Assembly (NCBI GenBank): GCA_945883825.1
Contig: CAMCYF010000009.1
Coordinates: 1 to 64,000, forward strand
From: Chitinophaga pinensis
Lineage (GTDB): Bacteria > Bacteroidota > Bacteroidia > Flavobacteriales_D > Crocinitomicaceae
Length of the DNA: 64,000 nt
Reading direction: 5' to 3'
The notes beneath the pieces are model-generated. The model made no database searches and had not been told where the DNA came from. It saw nothing but the letters and a program-made list of their open reading frames with translations. Each line of letters begins with the position of its first letter. Position 1 is the first letter of the stretch. The position numbers were made by a program, and so were the translations under genes. Below are positions 18,909 to 57,832 of this stretch, piece after piece.

Positions 18909-19496
18909 ATGGCGATTTATTCTTTTAATGGTTTTATTCCTGTTGTCAAAGCATCTAGTTTTGTTCATCCAAACGCTACGGTTACTGGAAATGTACTTAT
19001 TGGCGAAAATGTTTACATTGGCCCAGGAGCTGCTATTCGAGGAGATTGGGGACAGATAATCATAGAAGATGGCTGTAATGTTCAAGAAAATTGCACAATA
19101 CACATGTTTCCTGGGACAACTGTTCTTCTTGAGAAAGGTTCACATGTTGGACACGGAGCAATTATTCATGGAGCAAGCTTAGGTGAAAATTGTTTAATCG
19201 GAATGAATTCCGTAATTATGGATGATGTTGTAATTGGAAAAGGTTCTATTGTCGCTGCCTTAACTTTTGTTTCTAGCAATACGATAATTCCAGAAAGAAG
19301 CTTGGTTGTAGGAAATCCTGGAAAAGTAATAAAACAAGTGAGTGATGAAATGCTTGCATGGAAAACAGAAGGGACAAAATATTACCAGAAATTACCAAAA
19401 GATTGTCAAAATACTTTAATTGCTTGCGAAGCATTAACAGAAATTGAAGCGAATCGTCCAATGCAACAAAAAGATTACTTTAAATTCTCTAAATAA
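18909..19496 (+). CDS. Gamma-carbonic anhydrase/PaaY-like hexapeptide-repeat protein
   Basis: The 195-residue left-handed beta-helix protein shows a series of hexapeptide repeats (VTGNVLIGENVYIGPGAAIR, GDWGQIIIEDGCNVQENC). The gamma-carbonic-anhydrase histidines are visible in CTIHMF and VGHGAIIHGA. The ending MLAWKTEGTKYYQKLPKDC resembles PaaY, which acts as a thioesterase or carbonic anhydrase. I start at the ATG at 18909; an in-frame TTG at 18870 adds 13 residues that do not fit the family. It has its own upstream region (TACCTTTA at 18862). Confidence 0.88.
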   Translation: MAIYSFNGFIPVVKASSFVHPNATVTGNVLIGENVYIGPGAAIRGDWGQIIIEDGCNVQENCTIHMFPGTTVLLEKGSHVGHGAIIHGASLGENCLIGMNSVIMDDVVIGKGSIVAALTFVSSNTIIPERSLVVGNPGKVIKQVSDEMLAWKTEGTKYYQKLPKDCQNTLIACEALTEIEANRPMQQKDYFKFSK

Positions 19497-19530: not shown

Positions 19531-21894
19531 ATGAAAAAAACGAGTACAATTTTATTTTTTATGATCATTTCTGTATTTTACAGTTTTGGTCAATGTCCAG
19601 TGAATCAGTCTGAATTAACAATCACAATTGTTCCAGATAATTATCCAGCGGAATCAACATGGAAAGTATTTGTAAATAATATTCAAATTGCCAATGGAAC
19701 TACAAACAATGACACACTTTGTGTTGATTCTTCTGCTTGTATTCGTTTCGAAATGTATGATTCTTATGGTGATGGAATCTGCTGTGGCTATGGAAATGGT
19801 TCTTTTAATGTTCAATTAGAGGGCCTTACTGTTGCTTCAGGTGGACAATTTAGCACTATTTCATCACATACTTTTAATTGCCCCCAAGGCTCTGCGTGTA
19901 ACAATCCAATTCCTATTACTTCCGGAAGTTTTACAGCCCCTTATCCAAACACATTTTATTCATTCACACCTTCTTTAAGTGGAATGTATTCCATTTCAAC
20001 CTGCGACTTAAATACTTGTAATACAAAATTATGGGTTTATGAATCTTGTAATTCCTACGTTTATAATGTAGATAATACTGGAACTATATTTTACAATGAC
20101 GACAACACTATTTGTGGAAACTTAGCTGATATTAATGCAATTTTAATCGCCGGAACAACTTACATTATTAAAGTTGGGATTAATGAAGCTACTACCTGTT
20201 CTACACCCCTTGGTTTTTCAATCATATACGATGGACCCATTATTGGCTGTATGGACCCTCTAGCTTGTAATTACAATCCAAATGCAACAGTTTCAGATAG
20301 TAGCTGTGTATATTATCCAAGCCCTGATTGTTTAGGTCCTGATTTAATTATACTGCAAGATGTTATTCTAAACTCTCTTGAAATAAGAGAAGAACAGGCA
20401 ACGAATTGTCAAGTTGTAGAAGGTTGTATGACGGGCTACGGCCAACGAACTGTTTTAGCTTTTACTACCTGGATAAAAAATATTGGTGACATTGATTATT
20501 ACGTAGGAAATCCAACTGCAAATCCAACTCAATTCACTTTTGGTAACTGCCATGGCCACGCACACTATGAAGGTTATGCAGATTATATTTTATACAGGAA
20601 TGATGGACAAAATATTCCAATAGGACATAAAAATGGATTTTGTGTAATGGATTTAGAATGCAATGATGGAGGCAGTGGCCAATATGGATGTTCAAATATG
20701 GGGATTTCAAAACAATGTGGAGATATTTATAGCAGTGGGCTAGAATGTCAATGGATTGATATTACAGATGTTGATACTGCTGAATATATCTTAGCTATCA
20801 AAGTAAATTGGGATCAATCTCCTGATGCTTTGGGACATTTTGAAACGAATTATGCAAATAATTGGGCGCAAGTTTGTCTTCGTATAACAATGAATAGTGC
20901 CGGAGAAAAAGGGTACGAGATTCTTCCAAATTGTCAGCCTTATGTTGATTGTGCCGGAACAGCTTATGGTAATGCAGTAATTGACTGTCAAGGAAATTGC
21001 AATGGAACTGCACTTCGCGGAGATTTAAATAACAATAGTATTCTTGAAACTAACGACGTAGTTTCATACTTACAACATAGCGTAAATCTTGATTTAAATG
21101 CGCAATCGTGTAATGATTTATCTGCAGATAATACAATTAATGTATGGGATGCCGGATTATTATCCAATTGTATTTCGAATGGGGCAACAAATAATTCTGA
21201 ATGTACATTCCCAAATACTGTTCAAAATCCGAGTCAAGTAGTTACATTTTCTAATGAAGGTGTCTATACGCAGTTTGCAAATCCCTCAGTAGGATATATG
21301 GATATCTCAATTTTAAACTCAATCACAAAAGTTACAGGCTATCAATTTGCTATAAATGGTGCAACAATTTCTGGAGTATCAAGTTTAATTAATCCTCTTA
21401 CTTATCCAGTTCAATTAGAATACAGTTCAATAAATGGCCAAGTAGCTGGATTATCACTTATTGATAGTATGATTCCAAAACATACAACCTTAACACCATT
21501 TATCCGTGTATTTCTTGAAAACATTACTTCAGATTCTTTAATCTGTTTGTCACTAAATGCAGCAGCCTTAAACAATGTATATGAACCAGTTACTATAAAT
21601 GTTTTAAATCCTTGCTCAGGTTCACTTGGTGTTTTAGAAAATCTAAATCCAAGTGATTTTATGATTTATCCAAATCCATCCAATCAAGCTCTAAATATTT
21701 CATATATTGGTCAAAATGAAAAAATTGACTTAAGGATTTTTGATGCTTTAGGAAATGAAATCTATAAAGACAAACTTAATTTTAATTCACAAATTCATAC
21801 CATAAATACTGAAACCCTTAGTAATGGCGTATATTACATGCAGCTATCTAATAAATTTGGGGATTTAAGAAAGAGTTTTACAATTGTTCATTAA
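19531..21894 (+). CDS. Secreted lysyl oxidase-domain protein with dockerin-like segment and T9SS sorting domain
   Basis: The protein has 787 residues from the ATG at 19531, chosen because a signal peptide (MKKTSTILFFMIISVFYSFG) follows directly. In order: an N-terminal beta domain with YGDGICCGYG, a CMDPLACNYNPNA motif, and a lysyl oxidase domain (~residues 270-470). Then comes a dockerin-like pair of calcium loops (GDLNNNSILETNDV, SADNTINVWDAG), a beta-rich cohesin-like region, and a type A sorting domain (MIYPNPSNQ...GVYYMQLSN). In the lysyl oxidase domain the copper ligands are H341, H343 and H345 (CHGHAHY). The cofactor-forming pair is K367 (GHKNGFC) and Y400, followed by CQWIDITDV as in animal enzymes. 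An amine oxidase activity at the cell surface or outside is inferred. Confidence 0.92.
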   Translation: MKKTSTILFFMIISVFYSFGQCPVNQSELTITIVPDNYPAESTWKVFVNNIQIANGTTNNDTLCVDSSACIRFEMYDSYGDGICCGYGNGSFNVQLEGLTVASGGQFSTISSHTFNCPQGSACNNPIPITSGSFTAPYPNTFYSFTPSLSGMYSISTCDLNTCNTKLWVYESCNSYVYNVDNTGTIFYNDDNTICGNLADINAILIAGTTYIIKVGINEATTCSTPLGFSIIYDGPIIGCMDPLACNYNPNATVSDSSCVYYPSPDCLGPDLIILQDVILNSLEIREEQATNCQVVEGCMTGYGQRTVLAFTTWIKNIGDIDYYVGNPTANPTQFTFGNCHGHAHYEGYADYILYRNDGQNIPIGHKNGFCVMDLECNDGGSGQYGCSNMGISKQCGDIYSSGLECQWIDITDVDTAEYILAIKVNWDQSPDALGHFETNYANNWAQVCLRITMNSAGEKGYEILPNCQPYVDCAGTAYGNAVIDCQGNCNGTALRGDLNNNSILETNDVVSYLQHSVNLDLNAQSCNDLSADNTINVWDAGLLSNCISNGATNNSECTFPNTVQNPSQVVTFSNEGVYTQFANPSVGYMDISILNSITKVTGYQFAINGATISGVSSLINPLTYPVQLEYSSINGQVAGLSLIDSMIPKHTTLTPFIRVFLENITSDSLICLSLNAAALNNVYEPVTINVLNPCSGSLGVLENLNPSDFMIYPNPSNQALNISYIGQNEKIDLRIFDALGNEIYKDKLNFNSQIHTINTETLSNGVYYMQLSNKFGDLRKSFTIVH

Positions 21895-42834: not shown

Positions 42835-44358
42835 CTATTCTGTAATTATTTTTTGTGTGTAGCTATTCTTACCGTCATCGACTTTCACAAAGTAAATGCC
42901 TTTTGAAAAATCAGAAAGATCAATATCTAATGTAGATTGTTGTCCTTTAAAAAATGTTGTATGAATTTCCTGTCCTACTAAATTACAGATTGAAAGTTTG
43001 CAATTTGCCTCTTGAAGCCCTTCAATATTAACAGTAAACTTACCGTTAGAAGGATTTGGATAAACAGTAAATAAGAATGGATTTTGGGAAATATTATTCA
43101 CAGATGATAAGGGGGAGCAAACAACTGTCGAATCAAATAAATCAAATGTAGGCCAACTTGCTATAAGTGGTACAATAGATCTAACCAGCCCATTGAGAGC
43201 CGTAACAGCAGCATCAGAATCATACGGTCTTGTATTTACTAAAAGAGCATAGTTTATTCCATCATTCCTGCGACACTGAAAGGTCATAGTGCCACGGAGG
43301 CTACCTGAATGCAACCAGTTATTATCGGTAGTATTAATATACCACCCAAGCGCATAAGGACTACCCAAATAAGAATGAACAGGTTGTACCATGGTATTAA
43401 TAGTTGCTGGTAAAAGAATGTCTGGTTTTGTCGGAAACAAATCTACAGCACACAACAATTTACATAAATCTTGAGCCGAAGCAACCCATGCACCAGATTC
43501 TACAATAGCTTCCATATTATAACCACCATATTGAAAAGGAACCAATATATTATTATCAAAAATTGAAGGAATAAGAGGTGCACCTGGATAATCATAATAA
43601 TTAACCTCATTCGGAAACTGATCAATTAAAAGACTTTTAGCAATGTGCATATCCGTAATACCTAAGGGGGCTAAGATGGTATCTCTCACATAGGTCTCAT
43701 AGTCCTGGTTGGTTATTTTTTCAATCACTTTTCCAAGAATATTAAAGCCAAAATTAGAATACGCAGCACTTGTTCCTGGAGTAAAATCAAGCATTTGTTG
43801 GCTGAGAACATATTGAATGACGGTTTCAATAGGTGCGGGAGGCGGAACAGCCATAGCCAATGCAATTGCATATGTATTGTTCATGGGGTCGCCTGAAATA
43901 GCTCTATCCCAACCACCTTGGTGAGAAAGCAAATGCTTTACTCTAATATTATAAACTCTAGTGTCTAGAATAGTTTGATAAATAGGCTCAGGTAAAATTC
44001 CATTTGGTCCAAAAACAAGATCATTTAAACCTACTCTGCCTTGCTCGTAGAGATGCATAATTGTTATCGCTGTAATTTGCTTGGACAAGCTTGCTATTCT
44101 AAAAATATTATCAGGGCAAACAGCTGTATTGGTTGATGAATCTGCAAAACCAAACCCTCGGCTGTAAACTAAACGACCTTGATAAGTAATGGCTAATTGT
44201 CCACCGGGAATATCAAAATCATTTAAAAGATTAGTCATGGCAACATCGAAGTTGACAAGTGAAGGAGAATAAACACCTGTTTGGGCTTTAACGCTTTGCG
44301 TAGAAGTGAATAATAATAAGACTGTGATTGCTGTAAGTAGTAGATTTTTTGTTTTCAT
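42835..44358 (-). CDS. Secreted serine beta-lactamase-fold hydrolase with T9SS sorting domain
   Basis: The 507-residue protein has a signal peptide (MKTKNLLLTAITVLLLFTS). Its serine beta-lactamase/class C-like domain carries S90-x-x-K93 (RIASLSKQITAI), the tyrosine motif AAYSNFGFNILG (YSN) and NWLHSGSLRG (HSG in place of KTG). A C-terminal type A sorting domain ends it (TVYPNPSNGKF, NLVGQEIHT, SKGIYFVKVDDG). Such proteins are usually esterases or peptidases rather than true beta-lactamases. It lies 39 bp after the LRR gene with no 45-bp element of its own, so it may be co-transcribed with that gene. Confidence 0.9.
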   Translation of the reverse strand: MKTKNLLLTAITVLLLFTSTQSVKAQTGVYSPSLVNFDVAMTNLLNDFDIPGGQLAITYQGRLVYSRGFGFADSSTNTAVCPDNIFRIASLSKQITAITIMHLYEQGRVGLNDLVFGPNGILPEPIYQTILDTRVYNIRVKHLLSHQGGWDRAISGDPMNNTYAIALAMAVPPPAPIETVIQYVLSQQMLDFTPGTSAAYSNFGFNILGKVIEKITNQDYETYVRDTILAPLGITDMHIAKSLLIDQFPNEVNYYDYPGAPLIPSIFDNNILVPFQYGGYNMEAIVESGAWVASAQDLCKLLCAVDLFPTKPDILLPATINTMVQPVHSYLGSPYALGWYINTTDNNWLHSGSLRGTMTFQCRRNDGINYALLVNTRPYDSDAAVTALNGLVRSIVPLIASWPTFDLFDSTVVCSPLSSVNNISQNPFLFTVYPNPSNGKFTVNIEGLQEANCKLSICNLVGQEIHTTFFKGQQSTLDIDLSDFSKGIYFVKVDDGKNSYTQKIITE

Positions 44359-44397: not shown

Positions 44398-45852
44398 TTA
44401 TTCTTTTATCACTTTAAATGTTTGATGGTTGTTTTCGCCAATATTCAAAAAATACATTCCTGCTGGCAACGCTGATAGATCCAATTGATTCGTATTTTCT
44501 TCTTCTAAAAGTAGTTTACCTGAAAGGTCACTTAAGGTAATATTTACCGGCTCAGACAAGTAAATAGAACCAGTTGTTGGGTTGGGGTAAAACATTGGCG
44601 CTTTAGTTTCATTTTTATCTGTAATACCAACCCCGCTACAGTCTTCACTTAAATATGCCGAGGGATCAATATAATTACTCCAATTAGCAATACTCCATTG
44701 AACATCATCTACCTCTATGCAGCTTAGGTTTGGATTTCCAACCGCATAAAAATTAAACATATTAATGTTGTTACCATTTTTTACATCTAAACTTGTTAAT
44801 TGATTATTCTGGCATTCCAACATAAACAATACTGTATTGCCAGAAACATCCAAAGTTGAGATTTGATTGTATTGACAGCTCAAATAAGTAAGAGCAGTAT
44901 TAGCCGATACATTTAAACTTGTTAAACTATTCAAACCGCATTTTAATGTAGTCAGCGCTAAATTAGCCGAGACATTCAGATTTTCTAATGTAGCCATACC
45001 TGCCGGCCATCCCTCGGGAGAAAAACCAATGACAGAATTTGACCTACAATCTAAATTAGTAAGTTCAGTATTAGCCGAAACATCTAAACTTGTTAAACTA
45101 TTCCAACCGCAATTTAAAGTAGTAAGCAAAGTGTTTCCGGAAACATCTAAACTTGGTAATTTATTCCAAGAACAATCTAAATAATTAAGTAAAGTGTTAC
45201 CTGAAACATCTAAACTTGGTAATTCATTCCTACCGCAATCTAAATAAATAAGGGCTACGTTACTTAAAAAATCAAATGTTAAAATAGAAAAAGTAACTAC
45301 GTAATTAGTAAAATTATCTAAAGCCTCCCTTTTATTATCACTACAATCTAAAAAAGTTAAAGAAGTGAGCCCAGAAGTATTTAAGTTTAATAAACCGTTA
45401 TTATTGCATTTTAAGGTAGTAAGAGAAGTGTTAGCAGATACATCTAAACTATTTATATAGTATACGAAAACATTATCAATTTCAAATGGATTGGGAATGT
45501 ATGGATCTTGCCAAGAATCTATATTTCCACTACAATTTAAGTAAGTAAGCGCTATGTTAGCAGAAACATCTAAACCTGCTATTTTATTTAAACTGCAATC
45601 TAAAGAATCAAGTAATACAAAAGCTTCAATTCCTGTTAAGTCAGTAATATTTAATTGCGATACATTAATGGCTCCGTTGAATACACTTGCTTCTGAGACT
45701 TGGATTTCAGTATCCATATTGGTATTAATACTTGAATTATTTACTAATGCTGCTTTAAAAATTGTGTCAGGAATGTTTACATTTTGAGCTTGTGCGCTTG
45801 CAATAAAGGCAATGCTTGCCATTGCTGTGATTAGTAGATTTTTTGTTTTCAT
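44398..45852 (-). CDS. Secreted leucine-rich-repeat protein with T9SS sorting domain
   Basis: The 484-residue protein has a signal peptide (MKTKNLLITAMASIAFIAS). The N-terminal cap (NVNIPDTIFKAALVNNSSIN) precedes about a dozen 21-residue repeats of the form LDVSANTALTYLNCxxNxL. A type A sorting domain ends it (MFYPNPTTGSI, LSDLSGKLLLEE, PAGMYFLNIGEN). It is a paralogue of the 1259-residue LRR protein at 51.2-55.0 kb; the first ~100 residues are very similar. A binding or adhesion role is inferred from the repeats. A 45-bp element lies 84 bp upstream. Confidence 0.9.
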   Translation of the reverse strand: MKTKNLLITAMASIAFIASAQAQNVNIPDTIFKAALVNNSSINTNMDTEIQVSEASVFNGAINVSQLNITDLTGIEAFVLLDSLDCSLNKIAGLDVSANIALTYLNCSGNIDSWQDPYIPNPFEIDNVFVYYINSLDVSANTSLTTLKCNNNGLLNLNTSGLTSLTFLDCSDNKREALDNFTNYVVTFSILTFDFLSNVALIYLDCGRNELPSLDVSGNTLLNYLDCSWNKLPSLDVSGNTLLTTLNCGWNSLTSLDVSANTELTNLDCRSNSVIGFSPEGWPAGMATLENLNVSANLALTTLKCGLNSLTSLNVSANTALTYLSCQYNQISTLDVSGNTVLFMLECQNNQLTSLDVKNGNNINMFNFYAVGNPNLSCIEVDDVQWSIANWSNYIDPSAYLSEDCSGVGITDKNETKAPMFYPNPTTGSIYLSEPVNITLSDLSGKLLLEEENTNQLDLSALPAGMYFLNIGENNHQTFKVIKE

Positions 45853-46014: not shown

Positions 46015-48156
46015 TTACTCTTTTACAAATCGATGAACTGTGAATGTATCTTTAATCGTTAACCTTATTGAGTAAGCACCAGCGGCTAAGTATTTAACAT
46101 CAACATTGTTAGCATTTACAGTGGTTTTAACAATTCTTCCATGCAAATCTAAAACCTCAGCTTTATCGACTGTTTTACTGAAAAAAAGCACATCATTTGC
46201 TGGATTAGGATGGACAAAAACAGCGTTTAAACTCTCCTCGCTTAAACCAGAAATCACACCTACTTCAACCGTTGCAGAAGCTATACAGCCATTACAATCA
46301 GTAGCTGTTACAGAATAAGTTCCTGGAGCAAGGCCGCTTAGGTCTTCACTTGTTGCACCATTAGACCATTCATAAGTAATTGAATTCCAAGGTTGAATTT
46401 CGTAATGAACTTTAATAAGAGGAGCTCTTGGAGTATTAACTACAATTGGAAAAGAACTACTATGTCCAACAGTAATTGTAAGTGCTCCATTACTTCCCCA
46501 AGGAGTAACACCAGCTGTTCCAGCAGCAATTGAATATGTTAATGTTCCATTTAGCCCTAAATAAAAACCGTATGTTGCACCAGCTGGTATAGTTACTGCT
46601 GTCATTGGAATTGCACCACTATATACAGGCACCGTTGGAGTTCCTCCTGATGGAACTATACCACCTGCATTCGATGCGAGTGTTACCCAACCATTTGCAT
46701 TACCTATCTGAGGTATATAGGAGCCAGGATAATAATAAATATTGTAACTAGTAGCTGTACCAAAGTAGTTACCATAACTACCTTGAGAAATTCCTGTAAT
46801 AGTTAATGGATTCCCAAAAGTATTTATCATGTTGAACATTATTCCAGTTGATCCAGTAGAATATGCTGCTAAGTTAGAAGCCATACTAGCAGATGTAATA
46901 CAATTCCAACCCTCCACTGATAAATCAACAGAACCATCTAATGCGCTTGCACTACTTGCATCAACAACTCCTGTTGTAGCTGAAAGATCACAGTACAAAC
47001 AAGAAGCACTGTCACTTATAGTAGCTAAAGGATCGTAAGAATATGCAGCTTCGTCCATGCAACCCGCGCAGGTAGTATAATTACAATCAACATTAACATT
47101 AGCTAACGGAGAATAGTTACAAGCTAAAGGATCAGTACAACCATAGACAAGTCCCGCCTGACATACTGTGTTAAGAAAAGCTGGTCTAAATAAATTTATA
47201 GCCGCTATCATTCTAGTCTTTTGATCTTGAGTAAAGATATTTCTGCAATCTGTATAATCCATAAAATTCATATACATTTCACCATTAGGCCCTGAATTAC
47301 ATGCGTTAAATGCATTATAAGGAAAAGTTCCACATCCATAAGTTGCTGCGGACTCTGTTGGTGTATCATTACAAAAATCATCACCACAATTAGAAGTAGC
47401 TAACCAGTTTTCACCCCAAGTATGGTTTAAGTTTAACCAATGTCCTATTTCATGAGATGCAGTTCTTATCATAAAAGAGGTTGAACCTGCTGTAAAATTG
47501 CCAAACCTTGTAAAATCAACTACAACACCATCAGAACTAGCGGGGCTGCCAGGAAACGTCGCATAACCGTTATAACCATTTATATCACAAACCCAAATAT
47601 TTAAATACTGTGAGGTATTCCACGCATCAATTCCCCCTTGTGAAGTATATTTAACTCCATCATCTGAATAAATTACCCCAGTATAAGTTCCTGCTGAAAA
47701 GCTAGTTTGTGAAGTAGCAGTTCTAGTAATACCCGATGTACTATTTCCATTTGGATCTGTTGTGGCAAGACAAAACTCGATTCCACAATCTGCTCCAAGT
47801 GCTGCAAAGACTGAAGGAGTAGCTGAAGTATCCGCATTTAATCTTCTATAATCCTTATTTATTATTTCAATTGCTGATAAAATCTGTGCAGTACTAATAT
47901 TCTCCGTAGGATTATTATAAACTACATGAACAACAACTGGAATGGTTATGATTGTAGTCTTCGTAGATTTTGAGCTAGGATGCGTTTTAATCCAGTTTTG
48001 CATTGCTTGCTCATTTTTCAACATTTTATTTTCTAGTTTTGGATCTTGCGTTTTTAAATATTCAAGATATTCCATTGTGCCACACTCTTTTTTTTGAGCA
48101 GATACTAAAGAATAATAAAACAAAAAGGAAATTGTAACTAGTATTATTTTTTTCAT
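46015..48156 (-). CDS. Secreted M43-family zinc metalloprotease with SprB-like repeat and T9SS sorting domain (copy 1)
   Basis: The 713-residue protein has a signal peptide (MKKIILVTISFLFYYSLVSA) and a propeptide-like helical region (~20-65). Its pappalysin-type M43 domain has H235-E-x-x-H239-x5-H245 (SHEIGHWLNLNHTWG) and the Met-turn MNFMDYTDC. Two CTDPLACNY-like motifs (residues ~340-390) and a beta domain follow, then a SprB-like repeat (YEWSNGATSEDLSGLAPGTY) and a sorting domain (VHPNPANDVLFF, DLHGRIVKT, AAGAYSIRL). It is predicted to be an active extracellular protease. Copy 2 lies just upstream. Confidence 0.93.
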   Translation of the reverse strand: MKKIILVTISFLFYYSLVSAQKKECGTMEYLEYLKTQDPKLENKMLKNEQAMQNWIKTHPSSKSTKTTIITIPVVVHVVYNNPTENISTAQILSAIEIINKDYRRLNADTSATPSVFAALGADCGIEFCLATTDPNGNSTSGITRTATSQTSFSAGTYTGVIYSDDGVKYTSQGGIDAWNTSQYLNIWVCDINGYNGYATFPGSPASSDGVVVDFTRFGNFTAGSTSFMIRTASHEIGHWLNLNHTWGENWLATSNCGDDFCNDTPTESAATYGCGTFPYNAFNACNSGPNGEMYMNFMDYTDCRNIFTQDQKTRMIAAINLFRPAFLNTVCQAGLVYGCTDPLACNYSPLANVNVDCNYTTCAGCMDEAAYSYDPLATISDSASCLYCDLSATTGVVDASSASALDGSVDLSVEGWNCITSASMASNLAAYSTGSTGIMFNMINTFGNPLTITGISQGSYGNYFGTATSYNIYYYPGSYIPQIGNANGWVTLASNAGGIVPSGGTPTVPVYSGAIPMTAVTIPAGATYGFYLGLNGTLTYSIAAGTAGVTPWGSNGALTITVGHSSSFPIVVNTPRAPLIKVHYEIQPWNSITYEWSNGATSEDLSGLAPGTYSVTATDCNGCIASATVEVGVISGLSEESLNAVFVHPNPANDVLFFSKTVDKAEVLDLHGRIVKTTVNANNVDVKYLAAGAYSIRLTIKDTFTVHRFVKE

Positions 48157-48263: not shown

Positions 48264-50402
48264 TTACTCTTTTACAAATCGATGAACTGTGAATGCATCT
48301 TTAATCGTTAACCTTATTGAGTAAGCACCAGTGGCTAAGTATTTAACATCAACATTGTTAGCATTTACAGTGGTTTTAACAATTCTTCCATGCAAATCTA
48401 AAACCTCAGCTTTATCAGCTGTTTTACTGAAAAAAAGCACATCATTTGCTGGATTTGGATGTATAAAAACAGTGTTTAAACTCTCTTCGCTTAAACTAGA
48501 AATTACACCTACGTCAACCGTTGCAGAAGCTGAACAGCCATTACAATCTGTAGCTGTTACAGAATAAGTTCCTGGAGCAACTCCTGTAAGATCTTCAGTT
48601 GTTGCACCATTAGACCATGCATAAGTAAGTGTGGAAGTATTCGTTCCGTAATGAACTTTAATAAGAGGAGCTCTTGGCGAATAAATTGGATATGGAAAAC
48701 CACCCCCACGCCCAACAGTAATGGTAAGAGCTCCATTACTTCCCCAAGGAGTTACACCACCTGTTCCAGTAGCAATTGTATATGATAAATTTCCAATGCG
48801 ACCTATGTAAAAACCGTATGTTGCACCAGCTGGTATAGTTACTGCAGTCATTGGAATTGCACCACTATATACAGGATCCGTTAGCGTTCCTCCTGATGGA
48901 ATTGTTGCACTTGCATTCGTTGCAAGTGCTACCCAACCATTTTGATTACTCATTTGAGGAACATAAGAACCAGGATAATAAAAAATACTGTAACTGCTAG
49001 TTGAACCAAAGTTGTAGCCATAACTACCTTGAGAAATTCCTGTAATAGTTAATGGATTTTCCGAATTATTTAACATGTTGAACATTATTCCAGCATCGCC
49101 CGAAGATGCCCCAAAGTTTGCAGCTAAAATAGTTGGTGTTGTACAATTCCAACCCTCCATTGATAAATCAACAGAACCATCTAATGCGCTTGTACTACTT
49201 GCACCAACAACCACTGTTGAAGCAGAAACATCACAGTACGAACAGGAAGCAGTATCACTTATAGTAGCTAAAGGATCGTAAGAATATGCAGCTTCGTCCA
49301 TGCAACCCGCGCAGGTAGTATAATTACAATCAATATTAACAGTAGCTGATGCAGAATAGTTACATGCTAAAGGATCAGTGCAACCATAGACAAGTCCCGC
49401 CTGACATACTGTGTTAAGAAAAGCAGGTCTAAATAAATTTATAGCAGCTCTCATTCGAGTCTTTTGATCTTGTGTAAATATATTTCTGCAATCTGTATAA
49501 TCCATAAAATTCATATACATTTCACCATTAGGTCCTGGATTACATATGCTATTTGTGTTATAAGGAAAAGTTCCACATCCATAAGTTGATGAAGATTCCG
49601 TAGGCGTATCATTACAATAATCATCACCGCAATTAGAAGTTTGTCCAACAACATCACCCCAAATATGTTTTAGGTTCAACCAATGTCCTATTTCATGTGA
49701 TGCAGTTTTTATTATAAAAGAGTTGCCAGCTGCTGTGCCGATATCGCCAAACCTTGTAAGGTCAACAACTACACCATCCTCACTTGCGGGGGCGCCAGGA
49801 TACGTTGCATAACCGTTAAGAGTATTCAAATCACAAATCCAAATATTTAAATACTGTGAGGTATTCCAAGCATCAATTCCACCTTGTGATGAATATTTAA
49901 CAAAATCAGTTGAGAAACTTATTCCATTAGAAGTTCCGGGATCAAAACTAGTTGTTGAAGTTGGAGTTCTAGTAATACCAGATGTGGCATTTCCATTTGG
50001 ATCTGTTGTAGCAAGACAAAACTCGATTCCACAATCTGCAGCTACTGCTTCAAAGACTAAAGGAGTAGCTGAAGCATCCGCATTTAATCTTCTATAATCC
50101 TTATTTATTATATCAATTGCTGATAAAATCTGCGCAGTACTTATATTCTCCGTAGGATTATTATAAACTACATGAACAACAACTGGAATGTTTATTATTG
50201 TAGTCTTCGTAGATTTTGAGCTAGGATGCGTTTTAATCCAGTTTTGTATTGCTTGCTCATTTTTCAACATAAGATTTTCTAGTTGTGGATCTTGCGTTTT
50301 TAAATATTCAAGATATTCCACTGTGCCACACTCTTTTTTTTGAGCTGATACAAAAGAATAAGAAAACAAAAAGGAAAATGTAATTAGTATTATTTTTTTC
50401 AT
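48264..50402 (-). CDS. Secreted M43-family zinc metalloprotease with SprB-like repeat and T9SS sorting domain (copy 2)
   Basis: The protein has 712 residues from the ATG at 50402, chosen because the signal peptide (MKKIILITFSFLFSYSFVSA) starts there; a longer frame to 50600 runs through the upstream element and into the third, broken copy. Domain order is as in copy 1: M43 motif SHEIGHWLNLKHIWG, Met-turn MNFMDYTDC, CTDPLACNY motifs, beta domain, SprB-like repeat (YAWSNGATTEDLTGVAPGTY) and sorting domain (IHPNPANDVLFF). The zinc ligands are intact. Differences from copy 1 cluster in the beta domain (~residues 400-560), which may reflect a changed specificity. Confidence 0.93.
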   Translation of the reverse strand: MKKIILITFSFLFSYSFVSAQKKECGTVEYLEYLKTQDPQLENLMLKNEQAIQNWIKTHPSSKSTKTTIINIPVVVHVVYNNPTENISTAQILSAIDIINKDYRRLNADASATPLVFEAVAADCGIEFCLATTDPNGNATSGITRTPTSTTSFDPGTSNGISFSTDFVKYSSQGGIDAWNTSQYLNIWICDLNTLNGYATYPGAPASEDGVVVDLTRFGDIGTAAGNSFIIKTASHEIGHWLNLKHIWGDVVGQTSNCGDDYCNDTPTESSSTYGCGTFPYNTNSICNPGPNGEMYMNFMDYTDCRNIFTQDQKTRMRAAINLFRPAFLNTVCQAGLVYGCTDPLACNYSASATVNIDCNYTTCAGCMDEAAYSYDPLATISDTASCSYCDVSASTVVVGASSTSALDGSVDLSMEGWNCTTPTILAANFGASSGDAGIMFNMLNNSENPLTITGISQGSYGYNFGSTSSYSIFYYPGSYVPQMSNQNGWVALATNASATIPSGGTLTDPVYSGAIPMTAVTIPAGATYGFYIGRIGNLSYTIATGTGGVTPWGSNGALTITVGRGGGFPYPIYSPRAPLIKVHYGTNTSTLTYAWSNGATTEDLTGVAPGTYSVTATDCNGCSASATVDVGVISSLSEESLNTVFIHPNPANDVLFFSKTADKAEVLDLHGRIVKTTVNANNVDVKYLATGAYSIRLTIKDAFTVHRFVKE

Positions 50403-50430
50403 TTTTAAAAATTTTAAATTAATATTTGTC

Positions 50431-50475
50431 AAAAATATCGCGACTAAAGAATATAAAATTGTAAAAATCGAAAGT
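50431..50475 (-). promoter_or_regulatory. Shared 45-bp upstream element, copy 3
   Basis: This is 29 bp before the start of M43 copy 2, with one mismatch to consensus. A further ~65 bp upstream (to ~50540, including agaaagacct) is also shared with copy 4 and partly with copy 5. Confidence 0.65.
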
Positions 50476-50543
50476 GAGTTAATTTTAATATAAAAATAAT
50501 ATAGAGTAGAAAGACCTATTGAATCTTTCCGAAAATTAAGTCG

Positions 50544-50958
50544 TATTTCCATTTGGATCTGTTGTGGCAAGACAAAACTCGATTTTACAATCTGCTCCAA
50601 GAGCTGAAAAGACTGATGGTGTACCTATAGTATCCGCATTTAATCTTCTAAAATCCTTATTTATTATATCAATTGCTTATAAAATCTGCGCAGCACTTAT
50701 ATTCTCCGTTGGATTATTATAAACTACATGAACAACCACTGGAATAGTTATGATTGAAGTCGTCGTAGATTTTGAGCTAGCATGCGTTTTAATCCATTTT
50801 TGCATTGCTTGCTCATTTTTCAACATTAGATTTTCTAGTTGTGGATCTTGCGTTTTTAAATGTTCAAGATATTCCATAGTGCCACACTCTTTTTGTTGAG
50901 CATAGACAAAAGAATAAGAAAAGAAAAAGGAAAATGTAATTAGTATTATTTTTTTCAT
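50544..50958 (-). pseudogene. Truncated third copy of the M43 metalloprotease gene
   Basis: The frame starts at 50958 with the same signal peptide (MKKIILITFSFFFSYSFVYA) and matches the first ~93 residues of copies 1 and 2 up to NPTENISAAQIL. A TCA-to-TAA change (around 50677) then stops it. Homology continues past the stop ([23 protein letters not shown]) to about 50544, where it ends abruptly in sequence shared with the intergenic block. The whole catalytic domain is missing. The upstream element is still present. Confidence 0.9.
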
Positions 50959-51222: not shown

Positions 51223-54200
51223 CTAAGGTCGTTGTTCATAAGAACCCAACCTTGCGTTAAAATCAAAAACTGAGAAGTCGCTCGCATCAACATATGCATC
51301 GCCATTCAAGTCTCCATCTAGCATATATAAACCATCATATGCCGATAAATATGAATCGGTTTCGTAGATCGTATAATCAACACCATCTAAATAGCCATCA
51401 TCATTCAGTTCTCCTAACCATATTCCAAATAAACTTGGAACTAATACATGCATTGGAATTATTGAACCATCAGAATAAGCATTTACAGCATTATTAGCAA
51501 AACTAAATGTTGATGAAGCAATCATTGTAACAGGATTTCCGCTCCACAATGGAATTGCTGCCCTATGTTTTACTACTATATAGAATGAGCCACCTAAAGC
51601 ACCCAGAGGGAACTCACACTGCGCAGTTCCATTTGTTTGCAAAATAGGTGAAACACTGTATGCAACAACATCAAGGTTAGAAGGACTTCGTAATTCTACT
51701 GTTATAATATCCACATCTGTAGCGACTCCAGTATTTGAAGACCCAGATGCTACTAAGTTGTTATATCTAGCAGGACGCATGGAAGAAGGATTTGAGCTAT
51801 TTATATAATATCCATCCAAGAATACCTGAAGTGAAAGTGTAGCAGAAGATGGTGTAATTGTAAGATTCAATTCTTGTGTTACACAATTTACGGTAGTTCC
51901 TGTATAAACTCCAGAAGAAGTATATGTAAGCCCATTATTTGCCCATGTATATGTTCCAACAGCTGAAGTATTTGTAGAATTTGTAGAACTTGGTGTAATT
52001 GTTAAGTTTAAAGACCCTGTTACACTTGCTGCTGCGCAACCACCAGATGCTGCGATGGTATAGCTTACAACATAAGTGCCTACTGAACTTGCACTTGGCG
52101 TAATAGTTCCTGAACTTGAATTTATACTCAAGCCAGATGGACTTGCACTGTAGGTGCCTCCCGTAGTTCCTAATTGACTAACAGTTTGAACTGTTGTAAG
52201 AGTGTTGCACCATGGAGAGCCTGAATAACTAATACTTGCATTTGGCGCTGCAGTTATTGTTACAATTTTTGTTGTTGTAAATATTGCGCAACCACCAGAT
52301 GCTGCAATGGTATAGCTTACAACATACGTGCCTACTGAACTTGCACTTGGAATATTTGCTCCTGTACTTGCATTGATACTCAAGCCTGATGGACTTGCAC
52401 TGTAGGTGCCTCCGCTTGTTCCTGTTCGTGTTACTGCTTGGGCACTTGAAAGAGTATTACAGAAAGGGGTGCCTGAGTAACTAATACTTGCACTTGGGGC
52501 TGCGGTTATCGTTACTATTGTTGTGCTTACTGCTGCACAGACTCCTGCTGCGGCTATTGTATAGCTTACAGTGTATGTTCCCGTTGTACTTGAACTTGGC
52601 GTGATAGTTCCTGAACTTGAATTTATACTCAAGCCAGATGGACTTGCACTATATGTCCCACCTGATGTACCAATTTGGCTTACAGCTTGTCCTGTTGAAA
52701 GCGATTTACAAAAAGGAGAGCCTGAATAACTAATACTTGTACTTTGTGCTGCAGTTATCGTTACTGTTGTGCTTACTGCTGCACAGACTCCTGCTGCGGC
52801 TATTGTGTAGCTTATAGTGTATGTTCCCGTTGTACTTGCACTTGGAATAATTGCTCCTGTACTTGCATTAATACTCAATCCTGATGCACTTGCACTGTAG
52901 GTGCCTCCCATTGTTCCTAGTAGACTTACAGCTTGACCTGTTGTAAGAGTGTTACACCATGGAGAACTGGGATAACTAATCGTTGCACTTATTGCTGCGG
53001 TTATTGTTACACTTGTTGTTGTTACTTCAGCGCAACCTCCTGAGGCTGCAAGCGTGTATGTAACAGTGTAGGTGCCTACTGTACTTGCACTTGGTATAAT
53101 TTCTCCCGTACTTGCATTGAGGCTCAAGCCAGATGGACTTGCACTATATGTGCCTCCTGCCGTTCCTATTTGACTTACAGCTTGACCTGTTGTAAGAGTG
53201 TTACACAATGGAGAACCTAAATAACTAAGACTTGCTATGGGTACCGGATTTATTGATACTACAGTTGTTGTTGATGTAGATGTTGTTGTAGCGTAACAAC
53301 TACCTGATAGTGGTATGAAGGTGTAGGTAACTGTATAGGTTCCTGCTGAACTTGTACTTGGATTTATCGCTCCTGTGCTTGCATTAATAGTCAAGCCATT
53401 TGTTGAAGTGTAAGTGCCATCAGCAGCTCCTATTCGGTTAACAGCTGCTGTAGTATATGATTGGCAAAAAGACGAACTTGAATAACTAATTGCCGCACTT
53501 GAGCAGTTTAAACTAAAAGAAGCTGAGGAGTCTTTAAGCCCGAAGTAAATAACGCCTTGATAGTAATTATCTGCATACTCTGCCAGGGACATAGAAACCC
53601 AATTATTAGCACTCCAAGCAATATCGTCTACTTCTATGCAGCTTATGCTATTATTATATGCAAATAGATAGCCATGATTTAAATTAGTGCCATTTTTCAC
53701 ATTTAAACATGTTAAGAGATTATTATAACACCACAAATTACTAAGTGCTGTACAAGCCGATACATTTAAACTTGTTAAGAGATTATTATAACAATGCAAA
53801 ACAGTAAGTGCTGTATTAGCCGATACATTTAAACTTGTTAATTGATTATAAGCACAACCCAAAATAGTAAGTGCTGTATTAGCCGATACATTTAAACTTT
53901 GTAAAATATTGGCACCGCAATTTAAAAAAGTAAGTGCTGTATTAGCAGTTAAATCTATAGATTCTAATGAATTACCAAAACAATTTAAATAGGTAAGCGC
54001 TGTATTAGTCGATACATTTAAGCTTGGTAAGAAATTAAAATAACAATCTAAATAAGTAAGTGAAGTACAAGCCAATAAATTTAAACTTGTTAATCCATTA
54101 TAACTACAATCCAAATCGAAAAGTGCCGTCAAACCATATACATTTAAACTTGGTAATTGATTATGATCGCACCACAAAACAGTAAGATCAGTACAAGCAG

Positions 54201-55002
54201 ATACATTTAAACTTGTTAAATGATTAAAACCACAATCTAAATAGGAAAGATCTGAATTAGATGTCAAATCTAAAGATTCTAATAAATTACCATAACAATC
54301 TAAATAGTTAAGTTCTGTATTAGCCGATACATTTAAACTTGTTAAATAATTAACAGCACAATGTAAATAGGTAAGTTCTGAATTATTCGATAAATTTATG
54401 CTTGATAACCTATTATTATTACAATTCAAATAATTAAGTGAAGTACAAGCCGATATATTTAAACTTATTAAATCATTATTACTACAATTCAAATAAGTAA
54501 GGGCATCGTTACTTAAAAAATTAAATACAGGAGTAGAATGGACAAAACAAGTCAACCCGTAGTTAGGGTCAGAAGGGTCAGACCCACTATCATTAGTAAC
54601 ATATTGATCATCATAATGCCATTCTACATCTAAACCTGTTAAATCATTGTTGCCGCAAAAATAGTAATAAGTATTATTGCTGCAGTCCAAATACCTAAGA
54701 GCTGTGTTGGTAGATAAGTTTAATGAATCAATAGCATTAAAACTGCAATCTAATGAGTCAAGTAATACAAAAGCCTCAATACCTGTTAAGTTAGTAATTT
54801 CTAAACCTGATACATTAATGGCTCCGTTGAATACACTTGCTTCTGAGACTTGGATTTCGTTATCCATATTGGTGTTGATACTTGTATCCCCCACCAATGC
54901 AGCTTTAAAGATCGCATTTGGGATATTTACATTTTGGGCTTGTGAGCTTGCAATACAACTTAGGATTGTTATCCCAATTAGGAATATATTTTTCACATTC
55001 AT
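51223..55002 (-). CDS. Large secreted LRR/Ig-like repeat protein with dockerin-like C-terminus
   Basis: The 1259-residue protein has a signal peptide (MNVKNIFLIGITILSCIASSQA) and a cap like the 484-residue LRR protein (NVNIPNAIFKAALVGDTSIN). About 18 repeats of ~21 residues (LNVSANTALTYLDC...) run to ~residue 480. Six ~83-residue Ig-like modules (SISYSGSPFC, GTYSASPSGLSINASTG, GTYTVSYTIAA) occupy ~497-995, and then comes a region resembling fibre or matrix proteins. The C-terminus has two dockerin-like calcium loops (GELNDDGYLDGVDY, GDLNGDAYVDASDF) and ends LGSYEQRP with no visible type A sorting domain. The export route is therefore uncertain. A surface or extracellular structural role is inferred. 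Confidence 0.88.
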   Translation of the reverse strand: MNVKNIFLIGITILSCIASSQAQNVNIPNAIFKAALVGDTSINTNMDNEIQVSEASVFNGAINVSGLEITNLTGIEAFVLLDSLDCSFNAIDSLNLSTNTALRYLDCSNNTYYYFCGNNDLTGLDVEWHYDDQYVTNDSGSDPSDPNYGLTCFVHSTPVFNFLSNDALTYLNCSNNDLISLNISACTSLNYLNCNNNRLSSINLSNNSELTYLHCAVNYLTSLNVSANTELNYLDCYGNLLESLDLTSNSDLSYLDCGFNHLTSLNVSACTDLTVLWCDHNQLPSLNVYGLTALFDLDCSYNGLTSLNLLACTSLTYLDCYFNFLPSLNVSTNTALTYLNCFGNSLESIDLTANTALTFLNCGANILQSLNVSANTALTILGCAYNQLTSLNVSANTALTVLHCYNNLLTSLNVSACTALSNLWCYNNLLTCLNVKNGTNLNHGYLFAYNNSISCIEVDDIAWSANNWVSMSLAEYADNYYQGVIYFGLKDSSASFSLNCSSAAISYSSSSFCQSYTTAAVNRIGAADGTYTSTNGLTINASTGAINPSTSSAGTYTVTYTFIPLSGSCYATTTSTSTTTVVSINPVPIASLSYLGSPLCNTLTTGQAVSQIGTAGGTYSASPSGLSLNASTGEIIPSASTVGTYTVTYTLAASGGCAEVTTTSVTITAAISATISYPSSPWCNTLTTGQAVSLLGTMGGTYSASASGLSINASTGAIIPSASTTGTYTISYTIAAAGVCAAVSTTVTITAAQSTSISYSGSPFCKSLSTGQAVSQIGTSGGTYSASPSGLSINSSSGTITPSSSTTGTYTVSYTIAAAGVCAAVSTTIVTITAAPSASISYSGTPFCNTLSSAQAVTRTGTSGGTYSASPSGLSINASTGANIPSASSVGTYVVSYTIAASGGCAIFTTTKIVTITAAPNASISYSGSPWCNTLTTVQTVSQLGTTGGTYSASPSGLSINSSSGTITPSASSVGTYVVSYTIAASGGCAAASVTGSLNLTITPSSTNSTNTSAVGTYTWANNGLTYTSSGVYTGTTVNCVTQELNLTITPSSATLSLQVFLDGYYINSSNPSSMRPARYNNLVASGSSNTGVATDVDIITVELRSPSNLDVVAYSVSPILQTNGTAQCEFPLGALGGSFYIVVKHRAAIPLWSGNPVTMIASSTFSFANNAVNAYSDGSIIPMHVLVPSLFGIWLGELNDDGYLDGVDYTIYETDSYLSAYDGLYMLDGDLNGDAYVDASDFSVFDFNARLGSYEQRP
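52010..53515 (-). repeat. Six tandem ~250-bp coding repeats (Ig-like modules)
   Basis: Words such as gatggacttgcactgtaggtg and acaacatacgtgcctactg recur about every 245-252 bp. They encode the ~83-residue modules of the large LRR protein and share much of their DNA sequence. Confidence 0.8.
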
Positions 55003-56269: not shown

Positions 56270-57832
56270 TCATTTTTTGATTCTTTTCAAATCTAAATCT
56301 TGAAAGTCAAAGCTAAAATCAATATTTGGCGAAATACCTTCCATTTTAATAGCTTGAGCTTTACCTGTCTCATCAAAAGAAAATAGTGCAAAGGCATCGC
56401 AATTCATTGCTTGGTATTCCCATTTTATGGCAAAGGTAGTATCGTTATACAAAGCCATCGGTCCATTTAATTTTGGAGAACGAGAACATTTAATCCATAA
56501 TTGCTTATTTTTTTCGAAAACCTCCACATCTCCAAACCATTTGTCGGTATATATCCCTATAAAATTTTCATTTTTCACCTTATTTTTTTTCACTAGTTCA
56601 ACTTGTTCCCACGTTTTTTTTGTGACACTGTCACCTTCATTTTTATCTTCATTACTCCACGCTACCATTTTATCTATCCAAGCATAATCGTCAAGGCCTA
56701 AATAACTGTCGGAAATGGTATTAGTGAGGGAAGAAAAAAGTCCTCCACCTCCATTTTCAGTATTGGTTAAAATAACGATTCCTAAATTCAAATCTGGATA
56801 CATGGTTACTATAGAAAGCATCCCGGGCAAACCGCCAGTATGAGAAACTTCAAATTTTCCTACTATGTCCGTTAATACCCAACCCAAACCATAACCGTTA
56901 AAATGGGAATTATATCTTGGATTATCATTTGTTTCTAGTACGGTATGTATTCGCCACATTTCATTGTGATTATTTATAGAAAATAGAGAGTTTTTCAAAT
57001 CTGGCCCATACTTTCCTTTATTTAAACGAACGATCATCCATTTTGACATATCTGCTACATTAGAGAATATTCCGCCTGCAGCATCTGCCATTCCGATATC
57101 ATAACTATCAATTATTTTTATTGTACCAGATTCAGATGAATGTGGCGCTGCCAAATTACTTTTGTCTTTCTGCAAATAACCAACAAAGGTATTTTTCATT
57201 TGTAAAGGTTCGATAATCCGCTTTTGCACAAACAATTCATAACTCATACCGCTTGCTCTTGCAATTACTTCTCCTGCCACCATGTATAATAAATTATCAT
57301 AATCAAATTGTGTCCGAAAGGCTGATACAGGTTTAAAATATTGAAAGCAGCTTACAACATCTTGAATTGTAAAATCTGTGCCATCAGGAAAAAACATCAA
57401 ATCACCAACACCCAAACCAAGTCCGCTTCGATGCGTTAATAAATCTAGGATATTGAAATTCTCCGTAACATAAGCGTTATACATTTTGAATTCAGGAATA
57501 TGGTCTATTACTTTATCTGTCCATTTTAGTTTACCTTCCTCCTCTAAAATAGCAAGCGCTGTTGTTGTAAATGCTTTGGTATTGGACGCTATCTGAAAAT
57601 TAGTGTTTTCATTTACCGCTTGTTTAGTAGTGATATCCACCAGGCCATAGCCTTTTGAATGAATTACTTTTCCATCTTTCACAACTGCGACTGCAGCCCC
57701 TGCCACTTTAAATTTTACAAGTGCATCCGCCACCAATGAATCAATTTGTTGAGAGGATATTTGCGCAAAAGTTATGGATGGAGCAAAACAAATCAAAAAT
57801 AAGGATTTCAGCATTGTGGGATTTTTTCTCAT
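56270..57832 (-). CDS. Exported serine hydrolase, beta-lactamase class C fold with DUF3471-like tail
   Basis: The 520-residue protein has a signal peptide (SLFLICFAPSITFAQ). The catalytic domain has S83-x-x-K86 (IASNTKAFTTTALAIL), the tyrosine region DYDNLLYMVAGEV (YxN-like), and HTGGLPGMLS (HTG replacing KTG). A C-terminal beta domain (~residues 420-515) with NFIGIYTDKWFGDVEVF resembles DUF3471. No sorting domain is present, unlike the hydrolase at 42.8 kb, so it is probably periplasmic. The start may alternatively be the ATG at 57814. The 263-bp gap to the AraC gene (56007-56269) holds nothing I recognise. Confidence 0.9.
   Translation of the reverse strand: MRKNPTMLKSLFLICFAPSITFAQISSQQIDSLVADALVKFKVAGAAVAVVKDGKVIHSKGYGLVDITTKQAVNENTNFQIASNTKAFTTTALAILEEEGKLKWTDKVIDHIPEFKMYNAYVTENFNILDLLTHRSGLGLGVGDLMFFPDGTDFTIQDVVSCFQYFKPVSAFRTQFDYDNLLYMVAGEVIARASGMSYELFVQKRIIEPLQMKNTFVGYLQKDKSNLAAPHSSESGTIKIIDSYDIGMADAAGGIFSNVADMSKWMIVRLNKGKYGPDLKNSLFSINNHNEMWRIHTVLETNDNPRYNSHFNGYGLGWVLTDIVGKFEVSHTGGLPGMLSIVTMYPDLNLGIVILTNTENGGGGLFSSLTNTISDSYLGLDDYAWIDKMVAWSNEDKNEGDSVTKKTWEQVELVKKNKVKNENFIGIYTDKWFGDVEVFEKNKQLWIKCSRSPKLNGPMALYNDTTFAIKWEYQAMNCDAFALFSFDETGKAQAIKMEGISPNIDFSFDFQDLDLKRIKK

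Follow-up and report, generated by a model that had tools for sequence, protein, structure and literature searches.

The first 64,000 nucleotides of contig CAMCYF010000009.1 from a Chitinophaga pinensis genome assembly (GCA_945883825.1), hereafter the window, contain at positions 19531-21894 of the forward strand a gene that, according to the list of open reading frames (ORFs) and its translation, encodes a 787-residue protein, designated P0001. Judged by its family score, its predicted fold and its predicted copper and cofactor residues, P0001 is a lysyl oxidase (LOX). The reading frame is open from a TTG at position 19444 to position 21894, and the ATG at 19531 was taken as the start of the 787-residue protein; from this codon the N terminus reads MKKTSTILFFMIISVFYSFGQC and resembles a signal peptide. 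The features of the gene, with counterparts in human LOXL2 where these could be aligned, are as follows.

19531..19593 (+): signal-peptide-like N terminus, residues 1-21, MKKTSTILFFMIISVFYSFGQ, inferred from sequence
19594..20310 (+): N-terminal region, residues 22-260, with three parts named descriptively: a YDSYGDGI stretch, a second stretch that looks beta-rich, and the motif GCMDPLACNYNP
20329..20952 (+): LOX catalytic domain, residues 267-474, ten-cysteine frame included (Pfam match 299-450; model 258-466; cysteine pattern 270-474)
20551..20565 (+): predicted HGHAH copper site, H341/H343/H345, aligned with LOXL2 H626/H628/H630
20629..20631 (+): K367, predicted precursor lysine of the lysine tyrosylquinone (LTQ) cofactor, equivalent to LOXL2 K653; the preceding H366 is equivalent to LOXL2 H652
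20728..20730 (+): Y400, predicted LTQ precursor tyrosine, equivalent to LOXL2 Y689
20746..20772 (+): CQWIDITDV, from residue 406, aligned with CQWVDITDV of LOXL2
21022..21180 (+): dockerin-like pair of loop-helix repeats, residues 498-550, with conserved loop aspartates and predicted helices at 507-519 and 538-550
21223..21636 (+): cohesin-like domain, residues 565-702, from structural matches of a model to cohesin entries
21664..21861 (+): type A sorting domain of the type IX secretion system (T9SS), residues 712-777 (PF18962, TIGR04183)

The lysyl oxidase domain and its catalytic residues

The catalytic domain matched the Pfam family Lysyl_oxidase (PF01186) with an E-value (E) of 3e-30 and 105.8 bits, against a cut-off of 20.4, over profile positions 45-192 of 204; none of 14 control genomes was matched in the same search. 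When PDB sequences were searched, human LOXL2 (5ze3) was the best match and the sole lysyl oxidase among the matches, with an E of 8.3e-18, and of 6e-34 with a family profile. A sequence-only reading of the window had assigned to this protein a LOX domain with complete copper and LTQ precursor residues. A letter-by-letter count confirmed the positions that it gave to H341, H343, H345, K367, Y400 and the CQWIDITDV segment, and the domain assignment is borne out by sequence, family conservation and fold.

That reading had also suggested comparing a predicted structure with LOXL2, and the outcome for the fold favors LOX. An AlphaFold2 model of residues 258-466, built from 53 sequences, had a mean predicted local distance difference test score (pLDDT) of 89.8 and a predicted template modeling score (pTM) of 0.85. 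VIA-align placed 5ze3 first for this model (Z 22.6, root mean square deviation 2.6, 196 residues, 28% identity), with the next chain at Z 8.2, and Foldseek retrieved the same entry with an E of 1.8e-14 and a template modeling score of 0.76. In that structure of the LOXL2 precursor the residues Lys653 and Tyr689 lie 16.6 Å apart, and LTQ formation is expected to involve a rearrangement (PMC9694262). Since the two residues are this distant even in a solved precursor, a static model cannot decide whether the quinone forms.

Conservation was followed in relatives fetched as the best 80 of 408 matching stretches in named genome records, a sample that leaves more distant relatives outside it. The CHxHxH motif, the lysine and the tyrosine are kept in all 80 loci, which comprise 83 domains with 53-99% identity to the window domain; the CQW motif is present in 82 domains and reads CQF in one (L099). 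Three alignments, of 53 (A3), 43 (A4) and 29 (A5) rows, were hand-picked from 82 domain coordinates. Eight cysteines, the three histidines, the lysine and the tyrosine are among the invariant columns of the 53-row alignment. In an earlier comparison, the same lysine and tyrosine were strictly conserved among 60 LOX proteins aligned from all groups studied (PMC4448552).

Cysteine frame, relatives and gene neighborhood

The catalytic domain of LOXL2 is reported to contain five disulfides (573-625, 579-695, 657-673, 663-685 and 732-746), with alternate pairings in minor amounts (PMC9180022). Eight of its ten cysteines, corresponding to four of the five disulfides, align in all 27 rows of window-type LOX. 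By a spacing pattern, whose ranges were fixed after the alignment had been inspected, all 83 domains contain ten cysteines whose order is LOX-like. The last two cysteines, C449 and C468, are kept in 29 of 29 rows and come after the same NN as in LOXL2; by position, outside any alignment output, they would correspond to the LOXL2 pair C732/C746. Of the eight aligned cysteines, a Gemmatirosa row keeps four, a second LOX of the window genome three, two distant rows of the same class two (L050) and three (L051), and three Streptomyces rows two, two and one. Myxobacterial LOX has been described as keeping six of the ten, betaproteobacterial and archaeal LOX three or two, and the archaeal LOX of H. 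limicola two (PMC6508830). In sequence, the animal frame is thus more complete in window-type LOX than in the other prokaryotic LOX examined here or described in the cited papers.

P0001 shares with LOXL2 the fold, as predicted, the three copper-ligand histidines, the LTQ lysine and tyrosine and the CQW-DITDV motif. It differs in lacking the histidine equivalent to LOXL2 H623 and any SRCR match (a Pfam search of P0001 at E <=1 returned no SRCR domain), having T9SS, dockerin-like and cohesin-like domains instead. Judged from sequence, neither its architecture nor the first histidine position of the copper motif marks P0001 as an animal-type LOX.

Record titles assign 75 of the 80 relatives to Bacteroidota, mostly metagenome-assembled genomes (MAGs), four to Sphingomonadales and one to a 'bacterium'. 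Some of these titles seem provisional. The four Sphingomonadales-titled records resemble neighbors titled Sphingobacteriia and are probably mislabeled Bacteroidota. In a sample of the order, PF01186 matched 136 of 299 genomes, 113 of them with the strong, window-type form (best E <1e-12); in a draw from the phylum it matched 4 of 395, the window's own genome included; and in a draw from the class a window-type profile matched 59 of 395 genomes and 25 of 196 genera at E <=1e-10. Because these draws hold different genomes and disagree, no single prevalence can be derived from them. A viral origin was considered and set aside: among viral contigs, none of 33 pattern matches was a relative. Plasmid records searched with the window domain returned one Gemmatirosa record, those searched with a LOXL2 fragment returned eight, and those searched with the second LOX of the window genome returned none.

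In most of the relatives printed, the order seen by eye is that of P0001: N-terminal stretches, a GC-DP-ACNYNP motif, and then the LOX, dockerin-like, cohesin-like and T9SS domains; the exceptions are one ORF of L078, L120 and L124. The N-terminal stretches (residues 22-260 of P0001), for which a Pfam search at E <=1 gave no match, likewise have a comparable order by eye, L124 having an additional module and L120 an insertion. Two further window-type proteins outside the 80 (G040 and G051; L010 and L011) have CNW in place of CQW and an extra N-terminal module. Window-type genes occur as adjacent pairs in L078, L087, L110 and G947:C171 (L159), which suggests tandem duplication; the pairs of L078 and L087 each include one gene without the usual tail.

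The second LOX of the window genome is a 704-residue protein of LOX type, of a subtype distinct from that of P0001 and with a T9SS domain, encoded at G000:C33 (L002:769-2883; L155:2138-4252). It resembles P0001 in its HxHxH motif, lysine and tyrosine, and differs in keeping three of the eight cysteines, in a longer stretch between lysine and tyrosine, in MWV for QWI, and, judged by eye, in having no dockerin/cohesin tail. Similar matches occurred in 11 of 36 other genomes of the genus, some of them incomplete.

The ORFs next to the gene were recorded at 18 of the 80 loci, and nine neighbors from six of these 18 were annotated: two proteins with PF18962 tails, a CotH-type protein with a CHU_C tail, a nuclease, two transporters, a D-Ala ligase, one protein without a match, and an HlyD/CusB-type protein beside L116 (possibly part of a metal-efflux system, a single case). 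A conserved operon was considered and set aside, as nothing recurred among these nine. In a separate MAG record (L052), the LOX domain is 99% identical to that of the window and the adjoining ORFs are of like sizes, by which the gene order agrees with that of the window. From our reading of the ORFs, we take the flanks of the LOX gene to be a gamma-carbonic-anhydrase-like gene on one side and pyrG on the other. Further along the window, on the reverse strand, lie two adjacent M43 (pappalysin-type) metallopeptidase genes, both T9SS-tailed (46015-48156 and 48264-50600). Close to them are genes for leucine-rich-repeat proteins, the first T9SS-tailed (44398-45852 and 51223-55002, reverse strand), and the same strand also encodes two members of Pfam's Beta-lactamase (serine hydrolase) family (42835-44358 and 56270-57832), of which one has a T9SS tail.

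Dockerin-like, cohesin-like and sorting domains

The C-terminal half of P0001 (residues 460-787) was modeled from the 43 sequences of alignment A4, with a mean pLDDT of 88.7 and a pTM of 0.69. The rows of A4 were drawn from 77 tails of 300-360 residues; this length filter removed five ORFs: those of L053 and L058, whose ends are different or cut, and a single ORF from each of L078, L084 and L087.

The sequence-only reading had described a calcium-binding dockerin-like pair. Conserved loop positions and predicted helices support this pair, but Pfam gave no Dockerin_1 match to P0001. D498, D509 and D540 of the putative loops are invariant among the 43 aligned relatives and D529 is kept in at least 90%, and the model places a helix in each unit. 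Dockerin_1 matched 18 of the 43 members at E <=0.1 (best 2.2e-4); P0001 itself had no score with this family, and is absent from the four matches in its genome at E <=1. As 9 of the 14 control genomes also matched at E <=1 (two over the cut-off), weak Dockerin_1 matches alone say little. Taken together, sequence and model give moderate support to a dockerin-like pair in P0001. Elsewhere in the same genome (G000:C16; L132, L154), another T9SS-tailed protein matches Dockerin_1 over the cut-off, and its segment before the tail looks cohesin-like by eye.

Between the dockerin-like pair and the C-terminal tail lies a cohesin-like domain (about residues 565-702) that the sequence-only reading had not mentioned. 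In VIA-align comparisons of the C-terminal model, 30 of the 50 entries listed were cohesin-bearing, at Z 9.1-12.6, and 28 of these fell within the first 31 rows, where the remaining three were DUF3244 entries. The titles of 28 of the cohesin-bearing entries give cohesin or dockerin-cohesin, and 4fl4 and 3kcp, which also bear cohesins, were counted with them. All but a few of the cohesin alignments cover about residues 565-702, with 5-16% identity to the cohesins listed. Unrelated best matches typically reach a Z of 7 to 8 with this program, so the modeled domain, at Z 11 to 12.6, is cohesin-like above the unrelated level, by a narrower margin than for LOX. Pfam gave no cohesin match, and the dockerin-cohesin stretch, searched against its own genome at E <=0.1, matched itself only.

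The surface-sorting domain of the earlier reading was confirmed by two families, both over their cut-offs: Por_Secre_tail (PF18962; E 2.1e-12, 47.6 bits against 27) and NCBIfam TIGR04183 (37.6 bits against 23). PF18962 matched all 43 aligned members, a count from rows already filtered by tail length; because this filter removed tail-less ORFs, it is not a figure for all relatives. The genome also encodes SprA_N of the T9SS translocon (E 1.6e-150; none of the 14 controls), the only part of the system that was searched for, and has 83 PF18962 matches at E <=0.001, as against matches in one of the 14 controls and none over the cut-off.

Proposed function and origin

From sequence and models, we propose that P0001 is a member of the lysyl oxidase family that acts as an exported, active amine oxidase at the cell surface and depends on copper and LTQ, a reading to which we give a probability of about 0.75. 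The N-terminal signal would direct the protein to the periplasm, from which the type IX system would export it, the C-terminal domain serving for attachment to the surface. Cu(II) bound at H341/H343/H345 would drive self-processing of Y400 with K367 to lysine tyrosylquinone, and the mature enzyme would oxidize primary amines, probably those of protein lysines, yielding aldehydes, H2O2 and ammonia. Its dockerin-like and cohesin-like modules would most likely serve for self-association or for binding to partner proteins on the surface. The likeliest use would be cross-linking of surface or matrix proteins, which we suggest tentatively.

Several observations weigh against an active, lysine-directed surface enzyme. 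The alignment column taken as LOXL2 H623 (labeled 'H624?') has no histidine in any of the 27 window-type rows, the residue in P0001 being glycine, and the place of LOXL2 H652, a histidine in P0001, is histidine in only 9 of the 83 domains and phenylalanine in 70. Mutants of LOXL2 at H623 or H652 formed less than 50% of LTQ (PMC9694262); replacement of H623 in bacterial LOX had been reported previously (PMC4448552). The archaeal enzyme HTU-LOX of Haloterrigena turkmenica is relaxed in its specificity (PMC6452851), which means that a role confined to lysine should not be taken for granted. No recurrent neighbor that might serve as substrate or copper chaperone was found among the nine annotated from six loci. 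In three relatives (L078, L084 and L087) an ORF stops without the usual tail, ending in AGDVNASR-F. Within the genus the gene is patchy, with a strong-type match in only 2 of 36 other sampled genomes (G009 and G018; some of the 36 incomplete), and it is therefore dispensable there.

If the enzyme is active, its role might instead be nutritional or detoxifying, with free amines or amine-rich peptides outside the cell converted to ammonia and aldehydes. We hold this to be possible, if doubtful: HTU-LOX oxidizes taurine, glycine and some aminoglycosides, for which a modest role in nitrogen supply was suggested (PMC6452851), and the unrelated genes around P0001 and its occurrence in 2 of 36 genomes are as expected of an accessory metabolic trait, whereas T9SS display and dockerin- and cohesin-like modules exceed what a soluble scavenger would need (an argument from design only). 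That H2O2 at the cell surface is the main product, directed against competitors or used in signaling, seems to us quite unlikely. The LOX reaction yields H2O2, which the HTU-LOX assay measures (PMC6452851), but no peroxidase or stress gene was found among the annotated neighbors (nine at other loci and ten window genes). An inactive relative retained as a metal-binding or adhesive module would account for the loss, in most relatives, of the two histidines that affect LTQ formation in LOXL2; a dead enzyme should drift, however, and the three histidines, the lysine and the tyrosine are strict in 83 of 83 domains at 53-99% identity, which leaves this explanation very unlikely.

Cross-linking of bacterial collagen-like proteins, as in animals, is in our view highly improbable. 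The genome does contain one collagen-repeat match over the cut-off (E 5.3e-8), but it covers a short Gly-X-Y stretch, and the protein concerned reads like a tail-fiber type with an endosialidase-like end, and the collagen model also matches 3 of the 14 control genomes. A link between the two families across genomes was considered and rejected: collagen repeats occur in 47 of 113 genomes with window-type LOX and in 115 of 186 without (odds ratio 0.44; the window genome is among the 113, genomes with both LOX types are counted as the strong type, and kinship is ignored). Genomes with only weaker LOX matches show the opposite trend (20 of 23, against 142 of 276), which may be an effect of kinship.

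LOX in bacteria is, as a kind, already known, and P0001 is a member of a Bacteroidota subfamily of it. The novelty that the sequence-only reading implied for a bacterial lysyl oxidase was overstated: five bacterial clades, Bacteroidetes among them, were reported to carry LOX by Grau-Bove et al. (2015), who predicted activity (PMC4448552). Their proteins share with P0001 the PF01186 family, Bacteroidetes carriers and the conserved lysine and tyrosine; prokaryotic architectures were described as simple except for three sequences, and neither dockerin nor cohesin is mentioned in the main text (PMC4448552). HTU-LOX, an active, copper-activated and 3-aminopropionitrile-sensitive amine oxidase of broad specificity (Pestov et al. 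2019, PMC6452851), is like P0001 a prokaryotic LOX with the same catalytic residues; unlike P0001 it is archaeal, and dockerin, cohesin and T9SS parts are unmentioned in the excerpts of its paper. The modules of cellulosomes resemble those of P0001 in the cohesin-like fold and dockerin-like loop pair, whereas in P0001 both modules share one chain with an oxidase and identity to cohesins is 5-16%. Literature listings gave nothing relevant on a lysyl oxidase with type IX secretion or dockerin, most subscription journals lying outside their coverage, and no description of the LOX-dockerin-cohesin-T9SS architecture was found in the literature searched, cohesin having been sought only within PMC4448552. 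As far as these searches reach, the cohesin-like domain, the size and strictness of the subfamily and its near-complete animal cysteine frame are new.

A tree of 41 rows was computed from 27 window-type rows (of the 53 in A3, the first row and every second one), 7 rows of the second type, 6 further bacterial sequences and LOXL2 as the only animal row. LOXL2 joined the window type, from outside, at 96/84, with a long-branch warning from the program; of the rival placements, those with Streptomyces (p 0.30) and Gemmatirosa (p 0.23) were not rejected, and that with the second type had p 0.0445. As the tree holds no myxobacterial, archaeal or fungal LOX, a claim of nearest kinship is unproven. On a joint reading that we consider unlikely, the subfamily would be the nearest bacterial kin of animal LOX, the disulfide-braced domain having pre-existed in surface-displayed bacterial proteins with dockerin and cohesin modules, already as a matrix cross-linker whose modules joined self or partner surface proteins, before gene exchange with animal or fungal ancestors. 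If true, such an exchange would explain the origin of the enzyme that hardens the animal matrix.

Even as a plain amine oxidase, the P0001 family would be a sizeable extension of a thinly described group. It may also serve as a prokaryotic model of LTQ formation, which would be useful because, as of 2022, the human enzyme with its LTQ was said to lack structural information (PMC9180022). The role of bacterial LOX and the origin of the animal enzyme have both been posed as questions (PMC4448552, PMC6452851), and a large, strict family with most or all of the animal cysteines and with surface-sorting modules is a candidate to bear on both.

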